Source: Rubrivivax sp. (GTDB taxonomy: Bacteria > Pseudomonadota > Gammaproteobacteria > Burkholderiales > Burkholderiaceae_C). Taken from it: a stretch of 64,000 nt of DNA. The stretch spans positions 1-64,000 of the forward strand of contig JAEUPB010000039.1 of NCBI GenBank assembly GCA_016789955.1, read 5' to 3'. Below, in pieces: positions 55,449 through 64,000 of this stretch. The stretch's first letter is position 1, and every line of letters starts with the position of its first letter. A program made the position numbers and the translations under genes. The notes below the pieces were generated by a model. It saw only the letters and a list, made by a program, of their open reading frames with translations. It did no database searches and was not told the DNA's origin.

Positions 55449-56150
55449 ATGTCTTCGAACTCATCCTCCAGCGGCGGCCGCGGCAACGGCCGCGACGACG
55501 GCGCAGGCCACGATGCCGGTGACGACCACGGTGTCGACGATCCCGCCACGCACGACGTCGGCGACGACCACGGCGTGGACGATCCGGCGACCCACGACAT
55601 CGGCGACGACAAGGGCGCCGACGACCCCGCCACGCACGACGTGGGCGACGACAAGGGCATGGACGATCCCGCCACGCACGATGTCGGCGACGACCACGGC
55701 GGCGCACGCCAGCTCGGCCTCTTCGTCAACCAGGCCACGCAGCAGCTCGTCTTCAGCGCCGACTCGACGGAGCTCGAGCACTGGCGCGGTGACGACCGGC
55801 TGACGGCGCTGGACCTGTCGGTGTCGGTGCCGGGCTCGGCCAGCGCCGACAGCTCACCGGTGTGGCGCTTCCACGACCCGGTGTCCGACGTCTACTTCTG
55901 GACCGCCGACGACAGCGTGCGCGATTCGCTCGTGCGCAGCCACCCGGAGCTGGAGTACTCGGGCGAGGCCTTCCATGCCTGGCGCGACGACGGCGGCGGC
56001 ACGCACCAGGCGATCGGCGTCGTGTGGGACCACGACCATGGCGGCGACTACGGCCGCTTCGTCTATGCACCGGTCGACGACGCCGTGCGCATCGCCGGCC
56101 AGAGCAGCAGCGACGGCATGGAGTACCTCGGCATCGCGTTCTGGATCTGA
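55449..56150 (+). CDS. Asp/His-rich tandem-repeat protein with DUF5648-like C-terminal domain
   Basis: 233 residues. The first 29 are Ser/Gly/Asn/Asp-rich with no signal peptide. Residues 30-85 are four 14-residue repeats of DDPATHDVGDDHGV type, very acidic with regular His, suited to binding divalent metal. The C-terminal part (about 88-233) contains VWRFHDPVSDVYFWTADDS and ELEYSGEAFHAW, the pattern of the DUF5648 module found in surface and secreted proteins. It faces a type I-like export operon across a 56-base gap containing a terminator. Export as its cargo is inference; a Gly-Gly pair at residues 9-10 is the only leader-like feature. Confidence 0.83.
   Translation: MSSNSSSSGGRGNGRDDGAGHDAGDDHGVDDPATHDVGDDHGVDDPATHDIGDDKGADDPATHDVGDDKGMDDPATHDVGDDHGGARQLGLFVNQATQQLVFSADSTELEHWRGDDRLTALDLSVSVPGSASADSSPVWRFHDPVSDVYFWTADDSVRDSLVRSHPELEYSGEAFHAWRDDGGGTHQAIGVVWDHDHGGDYGRFVYAPVDDAVRIAGQSSSDGMEYLGIAFWI
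55536..55703 (+). repeat. 42-bp tandem repeat (4 units) in the Asp-rich protein gene
   Basis: Four units of 42 bp begin with gacgatcccgccacgcacga or close variants and encode the 14-residue acidic repeats. Changes between units are few and include codon-altering ones (Val/Ile, His/Lys, Val/Ala/Met), so the units have begun to diverge. A partial unit lies on each side. Confidence 0.93.
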
Positions 56151-56173
56151 CGAGCCCGACGCCCCGCCCGCAC

Positions 56174-56197
56174 GAGGGGCCGCACATGCGGCCCCTC
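56174..56197 (+). terminator. Rho-independent terminator after the Asp-rich repeat protein gene
   Basis: GAGGGGCCGC and GCGGCCCCTC form a perfect 10-bp stem around ACAT, followed by TTGCCTT. It lies 23 bases after the repeat-protein stop and just before the stop of the convergent ABC gene, so it could also help end that transcript from the other side. Confidence 0.8.
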
Positions 56198-56206
56198 TTG
56201 CCTTCA

Positions 56207-58354
56207 TCAAGGATGCGCGATGACGACCAAGGCGTCGGAGCGCTGCATCGCGCAGCGCAGGCAGCGCGCCAGCGTCTGCGGATCGAGCGCCGCGAAGCTC
56301 TCGTCCATCACCGTCAGCGGCGCGCGCTGCAGCAGCGCGCGCGCCAGGAAGATGCGGCTGCGCTCGCCGTGCGAGAGCTGCCAGCCGGTCTCGCCGACGC
56401 GCTGCTGCAGCCCCGCGGGCATGCGGTCGATCAGTTCGCCCAGGCCGAGTTCGCGGCACAGCCCCTCGGCTTCCGCGAGGTCGGCCAGCGAGGGCGGCCA
56501 GTCGCGCCCCATCAGCAGGTTGAAGGCGAGCGTGGCCGACAGGATGTGGTTCTCGTGGAACTGCGGCGCCGAGGTGGCCAGCCGGTGCCAGTCGTCGCCC
56601 AACGTGTGACGGTCCCAGCCGGCGAGCAGCAGCAGCCCGGCCTGCGGCGTGCGCAGGCCTGTCAGCAAGGCGGCCAGCGTCGACTTGCCGGCGCCCGACG
56701 GGCCTTCGAGCAGGATGCGGTCGCCGTGGTGGATGCGCACGTCGGCCTGCGCAAGCACGGCGTCGCCGGCGGCGGCATGGCGGAACTGCAGGCCGCTGGC
56801 GTCGAGCAGCGGTGCGCCGGCCGCCGCGTCGGCGCGCGGCGGGGCGGGCACGAAGATGCGCGGCGGCGCGCGGCCGGCATCACCGCCGGCTTCGAACAGG
56901 TCGCGCACCTGCTGCCACGCGACCCCCGCGCGCGCCAAGCCCGCCAGGCCCGCGGACATGCCGCCGAACGCGCGCTGCGCGAGCAATATGCCGCCGACGC
57001 TGATGGCGAGCGGCGCCACGCCCGCCGCACCCTCGCCCAGCAAGGCCGGCGCGAGGGCCGCCACCGCGGCGATGGTCCAGCCCGCGGGCACGCCGGCCTG
57101 CACCGGCGTCGCGGCGCGGTCCATCGCTTCCGAAGCGGCGAGGTAGCCGTGCAGCGCCTGGTCCTCGCGCGCGTCGCGCAGCGCCGGCCGCTCCTGCGCC
57201 AGCCGCGTGCGGTGGCCGACCATGCGCTCGACGAGATCGTGCGTCAGGTCCAGCCGCGTCATCACCCAGCCGCGCAGCCGCGCACCGTAGCGCCCCGCGA
57301 GCAACGCGGTGAGCACCAGGCACGCGGCCAGCAGCACGAGATGCCCCACCGGCACCGCGCCTTGCGCCAGCACCCACGCGGCGAACGCCAGCTCCAGCAA
57401 CGACACCACAGCCGCGAGGCCGCCGCTGAGGGCCAGCGACTCCAGCGCCTGCGACTCCAGCACGCGGCCGAGCAGCTGGCCCACGCCCTGCTCGCGCACG
57501 CGGTCGATCGGCAACCGCATCGCGCCGGCCATCAACCGCGACTTCAGCAGCCGCCCCGCCTCGCGCGCGAAGCCGGCCTGCAGCGCCTGCCCCGCGAGTC
57601 GCAACGGCACCAGCGACAGCAGCGCCAGCGCCCACGCGGCGAGCCAGCCGGCGTCGAGCCGGCCGCCGAGCGCGGCCTGTCCGATCAGGCCCCAACCGGC
57701 GATCTCGAGCGCGTAGAGCAGCGCATACGTGCCGAGCACCGCCCCGAGCCGCGCCGGCAGGCCGGCCGAGACCAGCTGGCGCACGAACGGCGTGGTGGCG
57801 GGCTGGCGCAGCATCCAGCACGGCCCGGTGCGTTCGGTGGCCAGCCGCTCGCGGCGCAGCGCGGTGCGCACGGCCGGACGCCTCGCGGCCGGCACGTCGG
57901 CCAGCGCGAGCAAAGCGTCGAGCTCACCTTGCACGGCGCGATCGTGGCGCGCGGTCAGCGCGTCTTCCGCGGCTGCCAGCTGGCAGGCGCGCGGCTGCAG
58001 GTCGGGGCCGAGCAGTTTCAGCCCGCGGCCGCGGCGGCCGAGCAGCACGAGAAACACCGGCGCCGCACCGCCCTCGATCGGCAGCACCGCGGGAGCAGCG
58101 CCGCGCAGCAGCGCCGGCGCTTCCGGCACCGAGGCATCGACCGAAGCGACCTCCACGCCCAGCTGTGCGCCGGCCCACTCGATCCAGCGGCGGCGCTCGG
58201 CCTCGTCGGTGGCCGCCTCGCCACGGCCCGCCGGTGGCGCGCCCAGCGGCTGCGCGGCGGCATGGCCCAGCCCGCTGCGCACCGCCAGCAGCTCCAGCGC
58301 CTCGCCGAGGCGCTCCACCGGCCACGCCAGGGCGGCAATCGACGGATGGTTCAT
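56207..58354 (-). CDS. ABC exporter (TMD-NBD half) with degenerate C39-like N-terminal domain
   Basis: 715 residues. The first 190 have a shape like a C39-peptidase-like domain (AGAQLGVEVASVDASVPEAP, VFLVLLGRRGRGLKLLGPDL), but the positions of catalytic Cys, His and Asp are not conserved. A six-helix export domain follows (about 195-470) and then a nucleotide-binding domain with Walker A GPSGAGKST, an unusual signature LSHGERSRIFLA, Walker B LTVMDESFAALD and the His switch in VVIAHP, which ends the protein. It overlaps the peptidase-ABC gene by ATGA and is probably its heterodimer partner. Confidence 0.9.
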   Translation of the reverse strand: MNHPSIAALAWPVERLGEALELLAVRSGLGHAAAQPLGAPPAGRGEAATDEAERRRWIEWAGAQLGVEVASVDASVPEAPALLRGAAPAVLPIEGGAAPVFLVLLGRRGRGLKLLGPDLQPRACQLAAAEDALTARHDRAVQGELDALLALADVPAARRPAVRTALRRERLATERTGPCWMLRQPATTPFVRQLVSAGLPARLGAVLGTYALLYALEIAGWGLIGQAALGGRLDAGWLAAWALALLSLVPLRLAGQALQAGFAREAGRLLKSRLMAGAMRLPIDRVREQGVGQLLGRVLESQALESLALSGGLAAVVSLLELAFAAWVLAQGAVPVGHLVLLAACLVLTALLAGRYGARLRGWVMTRLDLTHDLVERMVGHRTRLAQERPALRDAREDQALHGYLAASEAMDRAATPVQAGVPAGWTIAAVAALAPALLGEGAAGVAPLAISVGGILLAQRAFGGMSAGLAGLARAGVAWQQVRDLFEAGGDAGRAPPRIFVPAPPRADAAAGAPLLDASGLQFRHAAAGDAVLAQADVRIHHGDRILLEGPSGAGKSTLAALLTGLRTPQAGLLLLAGWDRHTLGDDWHRLATSAPQFHENHILSATLAFNLLMGRDWPPSLADLAEAEGLCRELGLGELIDRMPAGLQQRVGETGWQLSHGERSRIFLARALLQRAPLTVMDESFAALDPQTLARCLRCAMQRSDALVVIAHP

Positions 58355-61155
58355 CGCGACCCTCCCACGGCCTGCGCCGGCGCTGCGGCCACGTCTGCAG
58401 CGGGAGCTGCATCGACCACGCGCCCGTCCTGTACCGCCAGCCGCCGCCACTGCGGCCCGCTCCACACCTCCTTGCGCAGCGCGCGCTCGGCGGCCAGCAG
58501 CGCGCGGTAGCGCGACGGCTGCAGCGCCAGCGTGCGCGGCGCGCCGTCCTCGACGATGCGGCCGTCGTGCACGACGATCACGCGGTCGAAGGCCAGGGTC
58601 TCGCCCACGTCGTGCGTCACGCACAGCAGCGTGTGCGCGCGCCACCAGCGGCGCGCATCGGTCAGCAGCGCGTGGCGCTGCGCGCGGTCGAGGCCGCGGA
58701 ACGGTTCGTCGAGCAGCACGAGTCGGGTGTCGGTGGCCAGCAGCGCGCGAGCCAGGCGCACGCGCTGGCCCTCGCCGCCGGACAGCCGCCCACCGCCTTC
58801 GCCCAGCAAGGTCTGCAAGCCCTGCGGCAACCGCGCCAGCACGCCGCGCAGCCGTGCCGTCTCGATCACGTCGGCCAGCCGCGTGCGGTCTTCCGGCCGC
58901 GCGGCCTCGGTGAGGTTGTCGAGCAGGCTGCGGTTCCACAGCTGCACCGCGGGGTCGACCCACGCGGTCATCGCGCGCAGCGCCTCGACCTCGGCGGCGC
59001 CGGCCGGCCGGCCATCGAGCATCAGCTCGCCGGCCGCAAGCCGGTGCCAGCCGAGCAGCACGCCCAGCAGCGAGGACTTGCCTGCGCCCGAGGTGCCCAC
59101 CACGGCCACGTGCTCGCCGGGGCGCAGCGCGAGCGTCACGTCGTGCAGCACCGGGTGGCCGGCGGCGACCACGTCGCCGCCGCGGATCTCCAGCGCCACG
59201 CCGCGCTGCCGGGCCACCGCGGCCGGCAGCGGATGGGGCACGCGGGCCGCACCCTCGGTGGCCGCCACCGGGGTCGCCGCGTCCTCCGGCGCCGTCAGCG
59301 GTTCCAGCAGGCGCATCAGCACGTTGCGCTGCGCCGGATAGGCCTGCGCGACGCCCGATAGCCGCGCGCCCAGCGCCGGCAGCTTCAGCGCGAAGTACGC
59401 CAGCAGCAGGTCGGTGCCGGCGAAGGCGCCGGCGTGCAGCACATGGCTGGCCACGAGGCCGATCGCCAGGCCGGTGCCGACGAAGCCCTGCAGCCCGCGC
59501 GACAGCAGCGCGATGCGCTCGCCGCTGCCCACCGCCTCGGTCCAGGCGACGAGCAGGCTCTCGTGCTGCGCCGCCACGTTGGCCTCGGCGCGGTGGGCGC
59601 GCACGGGCACCAATCCGAGCAGCGCGTCGAGCGTGTAGCCGTTCAGCGCCGCATGGTGGTTGCGCGCGCGCAGGTCGCGCTCGCGCAGCATCGGCTGCAC
59701 CAGCCACGGCAGCGTGACGGCCGCGGCGGTAAGGGCGAGCGCCCAGGCCGCGCTGTGCGGCGCCAGCCACAGCACGACGGCCAGCGTGCAGGCCAGCTCG
59801 AACAGCGTCTGCACGCCCTGGAACCCGAGCGCGGGCACCTGCCGCGTGAGGTGCAGCGCGTGGCTGCGGTCGGCCATGTCGGAGACCGGGCGGCTCTGGA
59901 AGTAGCGGTCGGCCAGGCGCGGCAGCTTGCGCAGCAGCGCCATGCGCAGCCGCGCGTCGAGGTGGCGGCCATGGCGCTGGATCTCGCGCAGCACCGGCAG
60001 GTCGATGGCGGCCAGCAGCAGCATGAACACGAGCAGCGACACGAGTGCCGTCAGCGTCTGCCCGGGGCCGTGCAGCAGCGCCGGCAGCTCGAACAGGCCG
60101 CGCAGCAGCAGCGTCTCGACCAGCACCGCGCCGGAGGCCACGGCGATCGCAGCGGCCAAGGCCAGCGGGGCCAGCAGGCCGTCCTTGCGCAGCGAGTGCC
60201 AGACCTTGGCCAGCACGCGCACCGGCGGCTCGTTCAGCGCGGCCGCGAGGTCGGGCGAGAGGGGTGGCAGCGTCGGATCGGCGGCCGGGGCTGCGGTGGC
60301 GGCATCGCCGGCAGCCGGCGCGGCCCGCAGGCCCGACACGCGCAGCAGCACCGCGCCGCGCAGGCGCAGCTGCGGCCCGAGGTCGTCGGCCCCGGCGCCC
60401 TCGTCGTGCGCCACGGGCAGCACGCTCCACTGGTTCTCGGGAATCACCTCGGTGATCTGCTCGACCGGCCGCTCGGCGCAGCGCCCGCACAGCGCCCCGA
60501 CGAGCCGCAGCGCCGCGTCGCCGCGTGCGATGCCGCCGGCCGCGACGATGGCCTGCACGAGCCGCAGCGCGGCGTCGAGCGTCGCGATGCCGCGCCAGCC
60601 TGCGTCCTGCAGCGCCTGCGCGACGATCGCCTCGGCGGCCTGCGGCCCGGCGCCCATCGCGCACAGGGCCGCGCGCCACGGCGCCCGCGCCTCGGCCTCG
60701 CCGGCCCACAGCCGCCAGTCCGCGGCCGGCACCTCGGTCTCGTGGCGGAACAGGTCGGCGCGCAGCCGCTGCACCGGCACCCAGCGCCGGCCGAGTGCCG
60801 GGTCCATCACCTGCACCCAGGCGCCGACACGGCGCCAGGCGACGACGAAGTGCGTCGCCACGTCGGCATGGCGCACCACCAGCAGTGCCGGCAGCGGCAG
60901 CCCCTCGCCATGCGCCGGCAGCACGTGGTCGACGGGCAGCATCTGCTGCTGCGCGGCCAGGCCCAGCTGTTGCGCGACGACTTCCAGCGTGTCGATCGAC
61001 GTGCCGTCGACGTCGGTCTGGCAGGCCTCGCGCAGCCGGCCGTAGCCGACCGGCACGTGGTGGCCTTCGAGCAGGCACTTCAGCGCCGCGGGGCCGCAGT
61101 CCATCGACGAGGTCTGCACGACCTCGGGCGCCCACCAGCGGCGTGCGCGGGTCAT
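58351..61155 (-). CDS. C39 peptidase-containing ABC exporter with a large insert
   Basis: 934 residues. The N-terminal C39 peptidase is intact: Gln14 and Cys20 in VVQTSSMDCGPAALKCLL, His102 in THFVVAW and Asp118 in QVMDPALG. It should cut a leader, typically after Gly-Gly, during export. An insert of about 230 residues (about 130-355, with IPENQWSVLPVAHDEG and QLRLRGAVLLRVSG) separates it from the six-helix export domain. The ATPase has Walker A GTSGAGKSS, signature LSGGEGQRVRLA and Walker B RLVLLDEPFRGLD. Starts and stops overlap neighbours by ATGA on both sides. Confidence 0.92.
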   Translation of the reverse strand: MTRARRWWAPEVVQTSSMDCGPAALKCLLEGHHVPVGYGRLREACQTDVDGTSIDTLEVVAQQLGLAAQQQMLPVDHVLPAHGEGLPLPALLVVRHADVATHFVVAWRRVGAWVQVMDPALGRRWVPVQRLRADLFRHETEVPAADWRLWAGEAEARAPWRAALCAMGAGPQAAEAIVAQALQDAGWRGIATLDAALRLVQAIVAAGGIARGDAALRLVGALCGRCAERPVEQITEVIPENQWSVLPVAHDEGAGADDLGPQLRLRGAVLLRVSGLRAAPAAGDAATAAPAADPTLPPLSPDLAAALNEPPVRVLAKVWHSLRKDGLLAPLALAAAIAVASGAVLVETLLLRGLFELPALLHGPGQTLTALVSLLVFMLLLAAIDLPVLREIQRHGRHLDARLRMALLRKLPRLADRYFQSRPVSDMADRSHALHLTRQVPALGFQGVQTLFELACTLAVVLWLAPHSAAWALALTAAAVTLPWLVQPMLRERDLRARNHHAALNGYTLDALLGLVPVRAHRAEANVAAQHESLLVAWTEAVGSGERIALLSRGLQGFVGTGLAIGLVASHVLHAGAFAGTDLLLAYFALKLPALGARLSGVAQAYPAQRNVLMRLLEPLTAPEDAATPVAATEGAARVPHPLPAAVARQRGVALEIRGGDVVAAGHPVLHDVTLALRPGEHVAVVGTSGAGKSSLLGVLLGWHRLAAGELMLDGRPAGAAEVEALRAMTAWVDPAVQLWNRSLLDNLTEAARPEDRTRLADVIETARLRGVLARLPQGLQTLLGEGGGRLSGGEGQRVRLARALLATDTRLVLLDEPFRGLDRAQRHALLTDARRWWRAHTLLCVTHDVGETLAFDRVIVVHDGRIVEDGAPRTLALQPSRYRALLAAERALRKEVWSGPQWRRLAVQDGRVVDAAPAADVAAAPAQAVGGSR

Positions 61156-62372
61156 CGGCGCACCGAGGCGCCGGCCACCGGGCCGGTGGCCGCAGCCGGC
61201 AACGGTGGCGGTGCCGACGATGGACCATCCAGCGCGCGGCCGGCGGCGCGCAGCGCCAGCGCCACAGGTGCCAGCTGCTCCACGTCGACCTCCACCACAC
61301 CGGGCTGGCCGTGCTGCAGCGGCAGCGCCGGCCCGGCGGCCACCAGCGGCTGCAGCTCCACGCGCACGAGCTGCCCGCGCCACTCGCCGGCCACGCGCAG
61401 CACGCGCGCCGGCACGCTGCCGTACTGCGCCCACGGCCAGCCTTCGAGTCGCAACCGCGCGATCTGCCCGGGTTGCAGCCGGCCGAGCGCGCGCGCCGGG
61501 TCGAACTCGGCCACGACGAGCAGCTCGCCGTCGGGCACCACGGTGGCCAGGGTCTGGCCTTCGGCCACGTAGCTGCCCGGGCGCAGCGGCTGCACCTCGG
61601 CGAGCACGCCCGAGACCGGCGCACGCACCTGGTGGCGTTCGAGCGCCTGTTCCAGCCGCGCATGCGTGGCCGCGGCGGTGGCGAGGTCGCCCTCGAGCGC
61701 GACGATCTGGCGGCGCAGCGCCTCGCCCTGCACGCGGCCCTGCTCGGCGCGTGCATGCACGTCCAGCGCCTGGCGCCGGGCCTCGGCGATGGTGGCGTCG
61801 CGCGCGGCAGCGAGGCGGCGCGCCTCGGCTTCGGCGCGCAGCGCCTCGATCTCGGCCACGCTGCCGGCGCTGGCCTCGCTGCGCAGGCGGCGCGCGTGAT
61901 CGGCCGCGAAGTCGGCGGCGGCCACGGCCTCGCGGGCGCGCGCCACGGCCACCTGCGTGCCGGCCGTGGCGGTGGCCTGCTCGGCGGCCACGGCGGCCTG
62001 CTGTGCAGCCCACTCGTCGCGCGCCGCGGCCAGCCGCGGCGCCAGGGCCCGCGTGCGCGCCTGCTCCTCGCCGAGCTGCAACCGTGCGGCCCCGGCGTCC
62101 AGTTCCACCAGCACGTCGCCGGCGCGCACCGGGCGGCCGATCGCCAGGTGGCTCACCGTCACCGCCCCGGCTTGCGCCGGCGCCAGCGGATGCGGTGCCT
62201 GCACCACCTCCAGCCGCGCGTGCCGCGACACCTCGACCACGGTGACGCGGCCGAGCACGAACCACGCGAGCCAGGCGCCGAGACCCAGCGCGGCCAGCCC
62301 CCACAGCCACAGGGCGGGGCGGCCGGCGTCGAGCGCGAGCGCGCGGGCGGTGCGGCTGAACGGCGCGGCCAT
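61152..62372 (-). CDS. HlyD-family periplasmic adaptor (membrane fusion protein)
   Basis: 406 residues. One N-terminal transmembrane helix (about 20-45) is followed by a lipoyl/barrel-sandwich half-motif (SHLAIGRPVRAGDVLVELDAG), a long Ala/Arg/Glu coiled-coil hairpin (about 105-240) and the second half-motif HQVRAPVSGVLAEVQPLRPGS. It would link the two ABC proteins in the inner membrane to the outer-membrane channel encoded just upstream. It overlaps the downstream ABC gene by ATGA. Confidence 0.93.
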   Translation of the reverse strand: MAAPFSRTARALALDAGRPALWLWGLAALGLGAWLAWFVLGRVTVVEVSRHARLEVVQAPHPLAPAQAGAVTVSHLAIGRPVRAGDVLVELDAGAARLQLGEEQARTRALAPRLAAARDEWAAQQAAVAAEQATATAGTQVAVARAREAVAAADFAADHARRLRSEASAGSVAEIEALRAEAEARRLAAARDATIAEARRQALDVHARAEQGRVQGEALRRQIVALEGDLATAAATHARLEQALERHQVRAPVSGVLAEVQPLRPGSYVAEGQTLATVVPDGELLVVAEFDPARALGRLQPGQIARLRLEGWPWAQYGSVPARVLRVAGEWRGQLVRVELQPLVAAGPALPLQHGQPGVVEVDVEQLAPVALALRAAGRALDGPSSAPPPLPAAATGPVAGASVRR

Positions 62373-63934
62373 CAGCGGGTCTCCATCGTGAGGGGGCGGG
62401 CAGCGGCCGGGCTGGACGCGACGAGATCGGCAAGGGCGGCGGCACCGGCGGTGGCAGTGGCGTCTCCCCAGCCGCCGCCGAGTGCACGCACGAGCGCCAC
62501 CGTGGCGGCGTGGCGCGCACCCTGCACCTGCGCGGCAGCCAGTGCATCGCGCAGCGCGCGCCGCTCGGCATCGAAGACCTCCAGCGTGCCGACCAGGCCG
62601 CGCTCCAGCCGCGAGCGCGTCAGCGCCAGCACGCGGGTGGATTCGTCGAGCGCGGTGCGCCGCGCCGCGGCTTCGGCGGCGAGGTGGCGCAGCGCCGAAA
62701 GCTGTTCCTCCACCTCGCGCAGCGCGGTGAGCATCTGGCCGCGCCAGGCGGCAACCGCCGCGTCGTGGGCGGCGCGCGCGGCATCGGTCTCGGCGTCGCG
62801 GCGGCCACCGTCGAACAGCGGCAGCGACAGCAATGCGCCCAGGCCCCAGCTGCGCGCCGACGAGCGCAGCAGTTCGCCGAGGTCGGCCGAGGCCACGCCG
62901 CCCGACGCGGTGAGCGTGATGCCGGGCAACGCGGCGGCGCCGGCCACGCCCACGCGCTGGCGCGCGGCCTGCATCGCACGCTCGGCGGCTGCGACATCGG
63001 GGCGGCGCGACAGCACCGCGCTGGGGATGCCGGGCGGCACGACCGGGGGATCGGGCAGCGCGGCCGGTGCACGTGTGGCATCGGCCGCAGGCGCTGCCAG
63101 CGGGTCGGGCGCGAGGGTCGAGGCGACGTCGACGTGGTGCGCGCCCAGCAGGTGCGCCAGCGCGATGTGCTGCGCGGCGCGTTCGCGGTCCAGCGCCAGC
63201 GCCTGTGCATCCAGCGCCACGGCTTCCGCACGCGCGGCGCCGCTGTCCGCCGGCGATGCGAGGCCGGCGCGCTCACGGCGTTCGATCAGCCGCGCGGTCT
63301 CGTGCTGCGCGGCGGCGCTGCGGCGCAACGTGGCGCGCTGGGCGTCGAGGCTGCGCAAGGCCTGCCAGGTGGCGGCCACGTCGGCCTGCAGCTGCAGCCG
63401 CGCGGCGCGCCACAGGGCTTCGCGCTGTTCGGCGTCGAGCTGCGCGGCCCGGGCGGCCATCGACAGGCGCCCGCCGACATCCATCTCCAGTTCGGCTGCA
63501 AGCCCGGCTCTCAGCAGCGTGCCGTCAGCCCCCGCGGCGTTGATCAGCGGCCCGCCCTGGCGCGACACGCCGGCGTTCAGGCCCAGCTGCGGCCGTTGCG
63601 CGGCACCGGCCGCGCGGGCCAGCGCACGCGACTGTTCGAGCCGTGTCAGCGCCTGCTGCAGCTGCGGGCTGGCGGCCATCGCGCGCTGCACCGCGGCGTC
63701 GAGCGCGGGATCGGCGTAGAGGCGCCACCACGCGCCATCGGCCGGCGTCGCGGCCGCAACCGGCGCGGCGGCGGCCGATGGGGCCGGGTGGGTGAAGCGT
63801 GCCGGCGCAGCAGCCCCCTCGATCGGTGGCAGGTTCGGCGTCGCACAGCCGTAGAACACGAGCAGCAGCGCCACTGCGCACGCGGCGGACGCTCGCGCGC
63901 GTCGCGATCGGCATGGACGTGAGAGCGGCTTCAT
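62372..63934 (-). CDS. Outer-membrane efflux lipoprotein of the TolC/NodT family
   Basis: 520 residues. The signal peptide ends in a lipobox (VFYGCAT, Cys about residue 30), so it is lipid-anchored like NodT/OprM rather than TolC. Two outer-membrane efflux repeats are visible: WWRLYADPALDAAVQRAM with SPQLQQALTRLEQSRA, and later LSRRPDVAAAERAMQAARQRVGVAGAAALPGI with LSLPLFDGGRRDAE. It is the first gene of the export operon, with the HlyD start touching its stop. Upstream sequence to the window end (63935-64000) shows no gene, so an operon start or further gene may lie beyond. Confidence 0.93.
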   Translation of the reverse strand: MKPLSRPCRSRRARASAACAVALLLVFYGCATPNLPPIEGAAAPARFTHPAPSAAAAPVAAATPADGAWWRLYADPALDAAVQRAMAASPQLQQALTRLEQSRALARAAGAAQRPQLGLNAGVSRQGGPLINAAGADGTLLRAGLAAELEMDVGGRLSMAARAAQLDAEQREALWRAARLQLQADVAATWQALRSLDAQRATLRRSAAAQHETARLIERRERAGLASPADSGAARAEAVALDAQALALDRERAAQHIALAHLLGAHHVDVASTLAPDPLAAPAADATRAPAALPDPPVVPPGIPSAVLSRRPDVAAAERAMQAARQRVGVAGAAALPGITLTASGGVASADLGELLRSSARSWGLGALLSLPLFDGGRRDAETDAARAAHDAAVAAWRGQMLTALREVEEQLSALRHLAAEAAARRTALDESTRVLALTRSRLERGLVGTLEVFDAERRALRDALAAAQVQGARHAATVALVRALGGGWGDATATAGAAALADLVASSPAAARPLTMETR

Positions 63935-64000
63935 CGGTGTGCCGGGATTCGCGAGGGACGGGCGGGTCGGGGTGTTCGGCAGGCGGCGCCCGCCGCAAGC

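Follow-up and report, generated by a model that had tools for sequence, protein, structure and literature searches.

A putative six-gene RiPP-type pathway with a predicted heterodimeric C39 exporter in a Rubrivivax sp. genome

We analysed an export operon of Rubrivivax sp. (assembly GCA_016789955.1) lying towards the end of a 64,000-nucleotide stretch (positions 1 to 64,000 of contig JAEUPB010000039.1, the window below), which is likely to belong to a six-gene pathway for a ribosomally synthesized and post-translationally modified peptide (RiPP) with a heterodimeric C39-peptidase exporter, a short leader and a presumed maturase. Four export genes lie head to tail on the minus strand. They encode a lipoprotein outer-membrane factor of the NodT type (62372..63934; 520 residues; TIGR01845, 283.5 bits against a cut-off of 210.05; OEP, PF02321), with a lipobox-like VFYGC (FYGC) judged by eye; a HlyD-type periplasmic adaptor (61152..62372; HlyD_3, PF13437, 44.7 bits against a cut-off of 22.2, with TIGR01843 and TIGR03794 scores below cut-off); and two ATP-binding cassette (ABC) proteins with transmembrane domain and nucleotide-binding domain (NBD). 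One of these, ABC1 (58351..61155; 934 residues; PF00005), starts with an active-looking C39 peptidase domain (PF03412, E 1.2e-16), and the other, ABC2 (56207..58354; 715 residues), with a degenerate C39-like domain, as assigned from family scans, a motif table and hhalign. Successive genes overlap by 1, 4 and 4 nucleotides. A search of genome contigs with the ABC2 peptide gave 71 loci, 72 with the Rubrivivax one (individual loci are cited by L number), and HlyD, ABC1 and ABC2 are in the same order and on the same strand in all 34 loci, our own included, with a HlyD match of at least 60 bits; together with the overlaps, this bears out the preliminary description of the four genes as one unit.

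The operon runs past position 64000 (the contig has 109,587 bases), and inspection of that region, which the preliminary description had suggested, revealed a candidate leader-bearing precursor. It is a 52-residue open reading frame (ORF) on the minus strand (contig 64261-64103; L075:103-261), whose near end is 103 bases past the last base of the window and whose product starts with MKIKTNLRAG, followed by RGGRCSG, a glycine run and then STTPDDTVGS. Its ATG, preceded by AGGAG, overlaps as ATGA the stop codon of a minus-strand gene for a 640-residue protein, C2 (contig 66180-64258; L075:258-2180), and the order in the six-gene operon is C2, precursor, outer-membrane factor, HlyD, ABC1 and ABC2.

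The precursor belongs to a family of 38 peptides that share a conserved start of ten residues (36 begin with Met), differ in their cores, which are 6-50 residues long, and are encoded by genes of 16-60 codons. A strict regular expression for this start, M[KNQE][VI][KQE][TS][NSKH][VIL][RK]AG, matched 36 ORFs in 27 of the 72 loci and had no match when the full set was simulated five times with an order-2 Markov model. Ala-Gly closes the conserved start, as the expression itself demands; moreover, the expression was composed after the first peptides had been seen, and counts on these loci are therefore not independent of it. The tests that post-date it are the simulations and a pattern search of 299 genomes of the family, both in its favour, and four new loci, which speak against it (see below). 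In the former search, a 30-base DNA pattern of the leader had a single match in the Rubrivivax genome, at this operon, and none in the other 298 genomes. C2 is encoded at 20 of the 71 homologous loci besides our own, from gene calls and clustering (the gene caller was a home-made codon-usage script, and neighbour counts are approximate), and at all 21 a strict-type precursor lies on the C2 strand. At 19 of them, the precursor start ranges from overlap with the C2 stop to 346 nucleotides past it; at L041 the precursor is fused in frame to C2, and at L002 it lies upstream. Hence homologous operons of the C2 type do carry a small precursor gene, a finding that the preliminary description had named as speaking against its own choice of cargo. 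The core, too, goes with C2: Arg-Cys occurs in 26 of the 28 precursors of C2 loci, often within a C-terminal [ST]RC[AV]G[IYLV], compared to two of the ten from other loci. Two acidobacterial loci have 16-codon ORFs just upstream of HlyD that encode MKVKSNVKAG plus six residues (L030:966-1016 and L036:6895-6945) and are candidate precursors.

Searches of C2 against Pfam, NCBIfam, PHROGs and PADLOC were negative, and PDB sequences gave no significant match. When 21 C2 sequences are aligned, 66 columns are invariant, and the residues conserved in them include His, Asp, Arg, Glu and one Cys. The AlphaFold2 model of the whole protein (predicted local distance difference test score, pLDDT, 85.8) matched no PDB fold at E<=0.001. 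The N-terminal 96 residues were also modelled alone (pLDDT 90.5), and in Foldseek the top matches of this domain were to MINA53 and NO66 (E 5.5e-4 to 7.5e-3), presumably through their winged helices, followed by TruD, McbBCD, the PbtF RiPP-recognition element (RRE), TigE and MccB (E 0.018-0.4). In the model, the C2 N-terminus reads as an RRE-like fold, and what follows as a mostly helical part with no recognised fold or family. With its short precursor, conserved leader and variable core, and with the RRE-like fold predicted for C2, the locus thus resembles known RiPP pathways, and from conservation alone we infer that C2 is an enzyme. The idea that C2 is a heme dioxygenase was dropped, as no such enzyme is among the 50 fold matches listed. 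A stand-alone protein of 360 residues at L087:8268-9350, which lacks the RRE-like part, is related to the middle of C2 (profile E 1.5e-24) and lies next to a weakly SBP56-like protein.

At other loci, ABC2 homologues are found with other presumptive maturases. For these we used a relaxed motif, [VILM][KQERT][TSA]x[VIL][RKQ][AG]G in a small ORF, which had 64 real matches, including most of the strict ones, against 13 in one simulation; single matches are uncertain, and a few fall within called genes. ABC2 homologues adjoin MvdD-type ATP-grasps at L024 and L031, and relaxed-motif precursors occur at L024, L025 and L031 (PFFA(Q/R)(F/Y)LE...V[KR]T[DN]V[KR]AG-like in L024 and L031), which we take to be microviridin-like. 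A Cys-rich relaxed-motif peptide lies near a full LanB at L069, on a contig that holds only the end of ABC2, and further such peptides lie near a LanC-like protein at L063 and near an FGE-type protein at L049-L051 (Pfam run on L049). These maturases bear on an alternative in which the small peptide is exported unmodified, as a bacteriocin or signal, and C2 is not an enzyme but a peptide-binding chaperone or immunity-like factor. The lack of any known fold or family for C2 beyond its RRE-like domain would fit this, but its invariant columns, with His, Asp, Arg, Glu and Cys, the RRE-like domain itself, the pairing of C2 with the Arg-Cys core and the known maturases beside ABC2 homologues elsewhere make it an unlikely account.

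ABC1 in the window retains all three of the residues, Cys, His and Asp, that we take to be catalytic in C39 (in DCGPA, HFVV and DPALG), and its PF03412 domain is the only one found at E<=0.01 in its genome (79.6% complete). The N-terminal domain of ABC2 aligned with C39 in hhalign (probability 95.6%, E 1.1e-8), with the His missing and the Cys region unaligned. The motif table for ABC1 and hhalign for ABC2 thus agree with the earlier proposal of one active-looking and one degenerate C39-like domain. The NBDs also differ. Their motifs, at positions we assumed from general ABC motifs, were counted only where a protein covered at least 55% of the query and agreed with a gene call, which left 46 ABC1 and 63 ABC2 from the 72 loci. 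The Q-loop Gln of ABC1 is replaced in 46/46 (Pro in 43, Thr in 3) and the signature GG is kept (Pro and an intact LSGGE in the window protein); ABC2 keeps the Q-loop Gln and has lost the second signature Gly in 63/63 (LSHGE in 62, LSQGE in one). It also ends one residue past the H-loop His in 60 of these 63, the window ABC2 included. In a head-to-tail NBD dimer, as we assume, the losses in ABC1 and ABC2 would share one composite site and one consensus site would remain. Known heterodimeric exporters have one consensus ATP site.

ABC1 immediately precedes ABC2 at 43 of the 46 loci that could be judged (those with an ABC1 match of at least 500 residues), at 40 by match distance and at L008, L064 and L065 by gene maps. 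Moreover, the ABC1 and ABC2 identity matrices correlate with r 0.895 over 44 loci, compared to a maximum of 0.217 in 500 label shuffles, a procedure that leaves shared ancestry in place. The sequences of the pair hence favour a heterodimer over a homodimer, and the heterodimeric peptidase exporter suggested in the preliminary description gains from the complementary motif loss and the conserved succession of the two genes. Each protein does have its own transmembrane domain and NBD, as two separate homodimers would need, and direct succession is not seen at three loci; however, a single composite site would contain both degenerate motifs (with the geometry assumed above) while the other is canonical in nearly all sequences, ABC1 directly precedes ABC2 nearly throughout, and the two diverge in a correlated manner, so that we consider homodimers improbable. 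The C39 Cys is present in 37 of the 42 ABC1 sequences, our own included, in which the region is aligned.

Convergent with the operon, on the plus strand, lies a gene for a 233-residue acidic repeat protein (55449..56150), which we judge to be outside the system. It has a 42-bp tandem repeat in 4.6 copies and a DUF5648-like stretch scoring 20.1 bits against a Pfam cut-off of 25. The 56-nucleotide gap that separates it from ABC2 contains a perfect inverted repeat with a 10-bp stem and a 4-nucleotide loop (56174..56197), read by eye and absent from the list of a terminator scan, which is likely a shared terminator of the two genes; by inference, they are probably transcribed separately. The preliminary description had taken this protein to be secreted by the exporter as a type I substrate. 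It is adjacent, convergent and acidic, and no Sec signal is visible by eye (judged without a predictor), all of which could suit such a cargo. Against this, tblastn (E<=1e-4) found the protein beside none of the 71 homologous loci, 12 of which have less than 1.5 kb after ABC2, and among the 299 family genomes the protein occurs only here and as one 50-residue partial match in a genome with no ABC2 match. Nor was an AG or GG leader seen by eye near its N-terminus, and exporters with an active C39 domain are reported to carry small cargo, up to about 10 kDa (PMC8277102), in contrast to 233 residues here. With the inverted repeat between the genes as well, we find this proposal barely credible. 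What the exporter naturally carries is most likely not the repeat protein but a very small peptide, modified by an enzyme, whose gene lies immediately beyond the window.

Operons of this kind are known. The NHLP/N11P system has HlyD, a peptidase-ABC and a non-peptidase ABC in the same three-gene layout, and in it leader and exporter are common while maturases vary (PMC2887384). ABC2 with its varying neighbours (MvdD-type ATP-grasp, LanB, LanC-like) follows this mix-and-match pattern. Despite the identical layout, it is very unlikely that the export genes here are ordinary members of that system: the three proteins score well below the curated cut-offs (TIGR03794, 30.5 against 156.2 bits; TIGR03796, 175.7 against 853.3; TIGR03797, 86.6 against 709.4), for which NHLP membership was rejected, and a search of NCBIfam with the window precursor gave nothing up to E 10. 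In addition, the leader here has ten residues and is not related to nitrile hydratase or Nif11, and the end of ABC2 just past its H-loop His is a further difference. PCAT/AMS exporters (PCAT1, LahT and, we assume, CvaB and LagD) share with our pair an active-looking N-terminal C39 domain and, as predicted here, small-peptide cargo and a double-glycine-type site, but not the two different halves or the leader of about ten residues. In PCAT1, both protomers bear a C39 domain, and 24 of the 90 cargo residues are removed (PMC8277102).

In microviridin/graspetide clusters, double-glycine motifs and C39 exporters are common (PMC13039773, PMC8939145). The ATP-grasps and similar precursors at L024 and L031 recall these clusters; the window locus differs in having C2 and another core, and the surrounding gene calls, judged by eye, include no recognisable ATP-grasp. 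Microcin B17 (McbA/McbBCD) is similar in the match of the C2 RRE-like domain to McbBCD chain 6gri_2, presumably McbB (Foldseek prob 0.97), and in the Gly-rich, Cys-containing core of the window precursor, but no PDB fold was matched by the remainder of C2, and YcaO (PF02624) was not found at E<=0.01 in the 79.6% complete Rubrivivax genome, for which reason a YcaO-dependent RiPP (TOMM) was rejected. HlyBD-type type I secretion has the HlyD adaptor and outer-membrane factor in common with our operon, which differs in that the N-terminal domain of ABC1 is an active-looking C39 and not a C39-like one, in its two ABC halves and in the want of a supported large cargo. The libraries and literature searched yielded no description of a ten-residue AG leader combined with an RRE-like protein such as C2 and a heterodimeric C39 exporter. 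The literature search misses most subscription papers; within it, neither KVKTNVKAG nor KTNVRAG occurs, LSHGE gave no ABC-transporter paper as judged by title, and, among the papers listed on C39, heterodimers, RiPPs and NHLP, none describes the ABC pair or the precursor in its title or the start of its abstract. The presumed modifying protein C2 and the ten-residue leader look new.

In the RiPP-type pathway that we favour, the 52-residue precursor would consist of MKIKTNLRAG as a leader of ten residues and, after it, a core that is rich in Gly and contains an Arg-Cys motif. The RRE-like domain at the C2 N-terminus most likely binds the leader, and C2 most likely modifies the core, probably near the conserved Cys, through a domain with no assigned chemistry. 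ABC1 and ABC2 would assemble in vivo as a heterodimer in which the C39 domain of ABC1 cuts after Ala-Gly and the degenerate domain of ABC2 may dock or position the substrate, and one consensus ATP site would drive export through HlyD and the outer-membrane channel.

Several observations weigh against this reading. For the exporter, an ABC2 match does not directly follow ABC1 at L046, L061 and L067, a HlyD match of at least 60 bits is absent at 12 of the 46 judged loci, and the C39 Cys is lost in five of the 42 ABC1 sequences (L043, L056, L061, L062 and L064; Chloroflexi, where L043 is placed on the presumed affiliation of its genus), so that not every member is a peptidase. For the precursor, Arg-Cys is missing from two of the 28 C2-locus peptides, the poly-Gly core of the window peptide is atypical, only L012 being similar throughout among the 38, and a strict precursor is lacking at 45 of the 71 loci, partly owing to short contigs. 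At the four new loci from a later sample of 398 genomes of the phylum (L083-L086), no motif peptide was found near the ABC pair (0/4) and the strict pattern occurs nowhere in their genomes (0/4); they may have other leaders, distant precursors or another job. For C2, the four best Foldseek matches of the N-domain are non-RiPP proteins, the RiPP ones coming only at the weaker E values given above, the part past the RRE-like domain has no PDB fold match at E<=0.001, and in the 398-genome sample C2 was found here, partially in one genome with no ABC2 match, and nowhere else.

The phyla of the ABC2 loci include Proteobacteria, Chloroflexi, Planctomycetes, Acidobacteria and Myxococcota. Within its own family, ABC2 was found in one of the 299 genomes, indicating that the operon is patchily spread; the 398-genome sample has it in the Rubrivivax genome and four others, and plasmid records gave no match at E<=1e-60. 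The C39 Cys losses and the motif-less loci L083-L086 imply that the exporters form a broader family than these peptides do. With about equal weight for and against, we further propose that C2 founds a maturase family, with an RRE and an all-helical domain lacking a solved relative, that modifies an Arg-Cys core; that a ten-residue leader serves both RRE and C39 peptidase; and that the heterodimeric C39 transporter is used in mix-and-match fashion in several RiPP classes across at least five phyla. If so, a ten-residue motif and a recognisable ABC pair would provide a handle on peptide natural products, their precursor genes, of a size that tends to escape gene finders, would become findable, and C2 would be a protein whose chemistry no solved fold suggests. 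Two further points would become testable: the shortest leader that can suffice for a C39 peptidase and an RRE together, and the reason for which an exporter with a single consensus ATP site should combine a functional with a non-functional peptidase domain.

Four of the five loci with the C39 Cys lost have an SPFH-cluster neighbour (L043, L061, L062 and L064, but not L056), and the sequences suggest a repurposed, non-proteolytic exporter at these four and L056. SPFH/Band 7 proteins lie beside ABC2 homologues at these four and also at L021, L029, L034, L046 and L048 (Pfam: L021, L042), mostly with pentapeptide-repeat-like proteins as well, judged by eye. Some further small ORFs were noted: one at L032:13460 has repeated KVKSGVKAG with NHNEAQ linkers and resembles a multi-peptide precursor, and those with a relaxed leader motif at L021, L022 and L029 include two, in L022 and L029, with CGCKxRQxxLN in common. 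A protein of 358-407 residues recurs next to the operon at eight loci (L004, L009, L010, L018, L019, L027, L033 and L041) and is of the S-adenosylmethionine-dependent methyltransferase type (Pfam, L009 only). The neighbourhood of the ABC pair at L017, L027, L037 and L041 includes a subtilase-type gene (Pfam, L017) and one that looks, by eye, sigma-factor-like. At L004, L005, L009 and L015, C2 and HlyD are separated by a histidine kinase gene (Pfam, L004) and a gene that is response-regulator-like by eye; the two have the same strand as HlyD and are possibly a regulatory pair.

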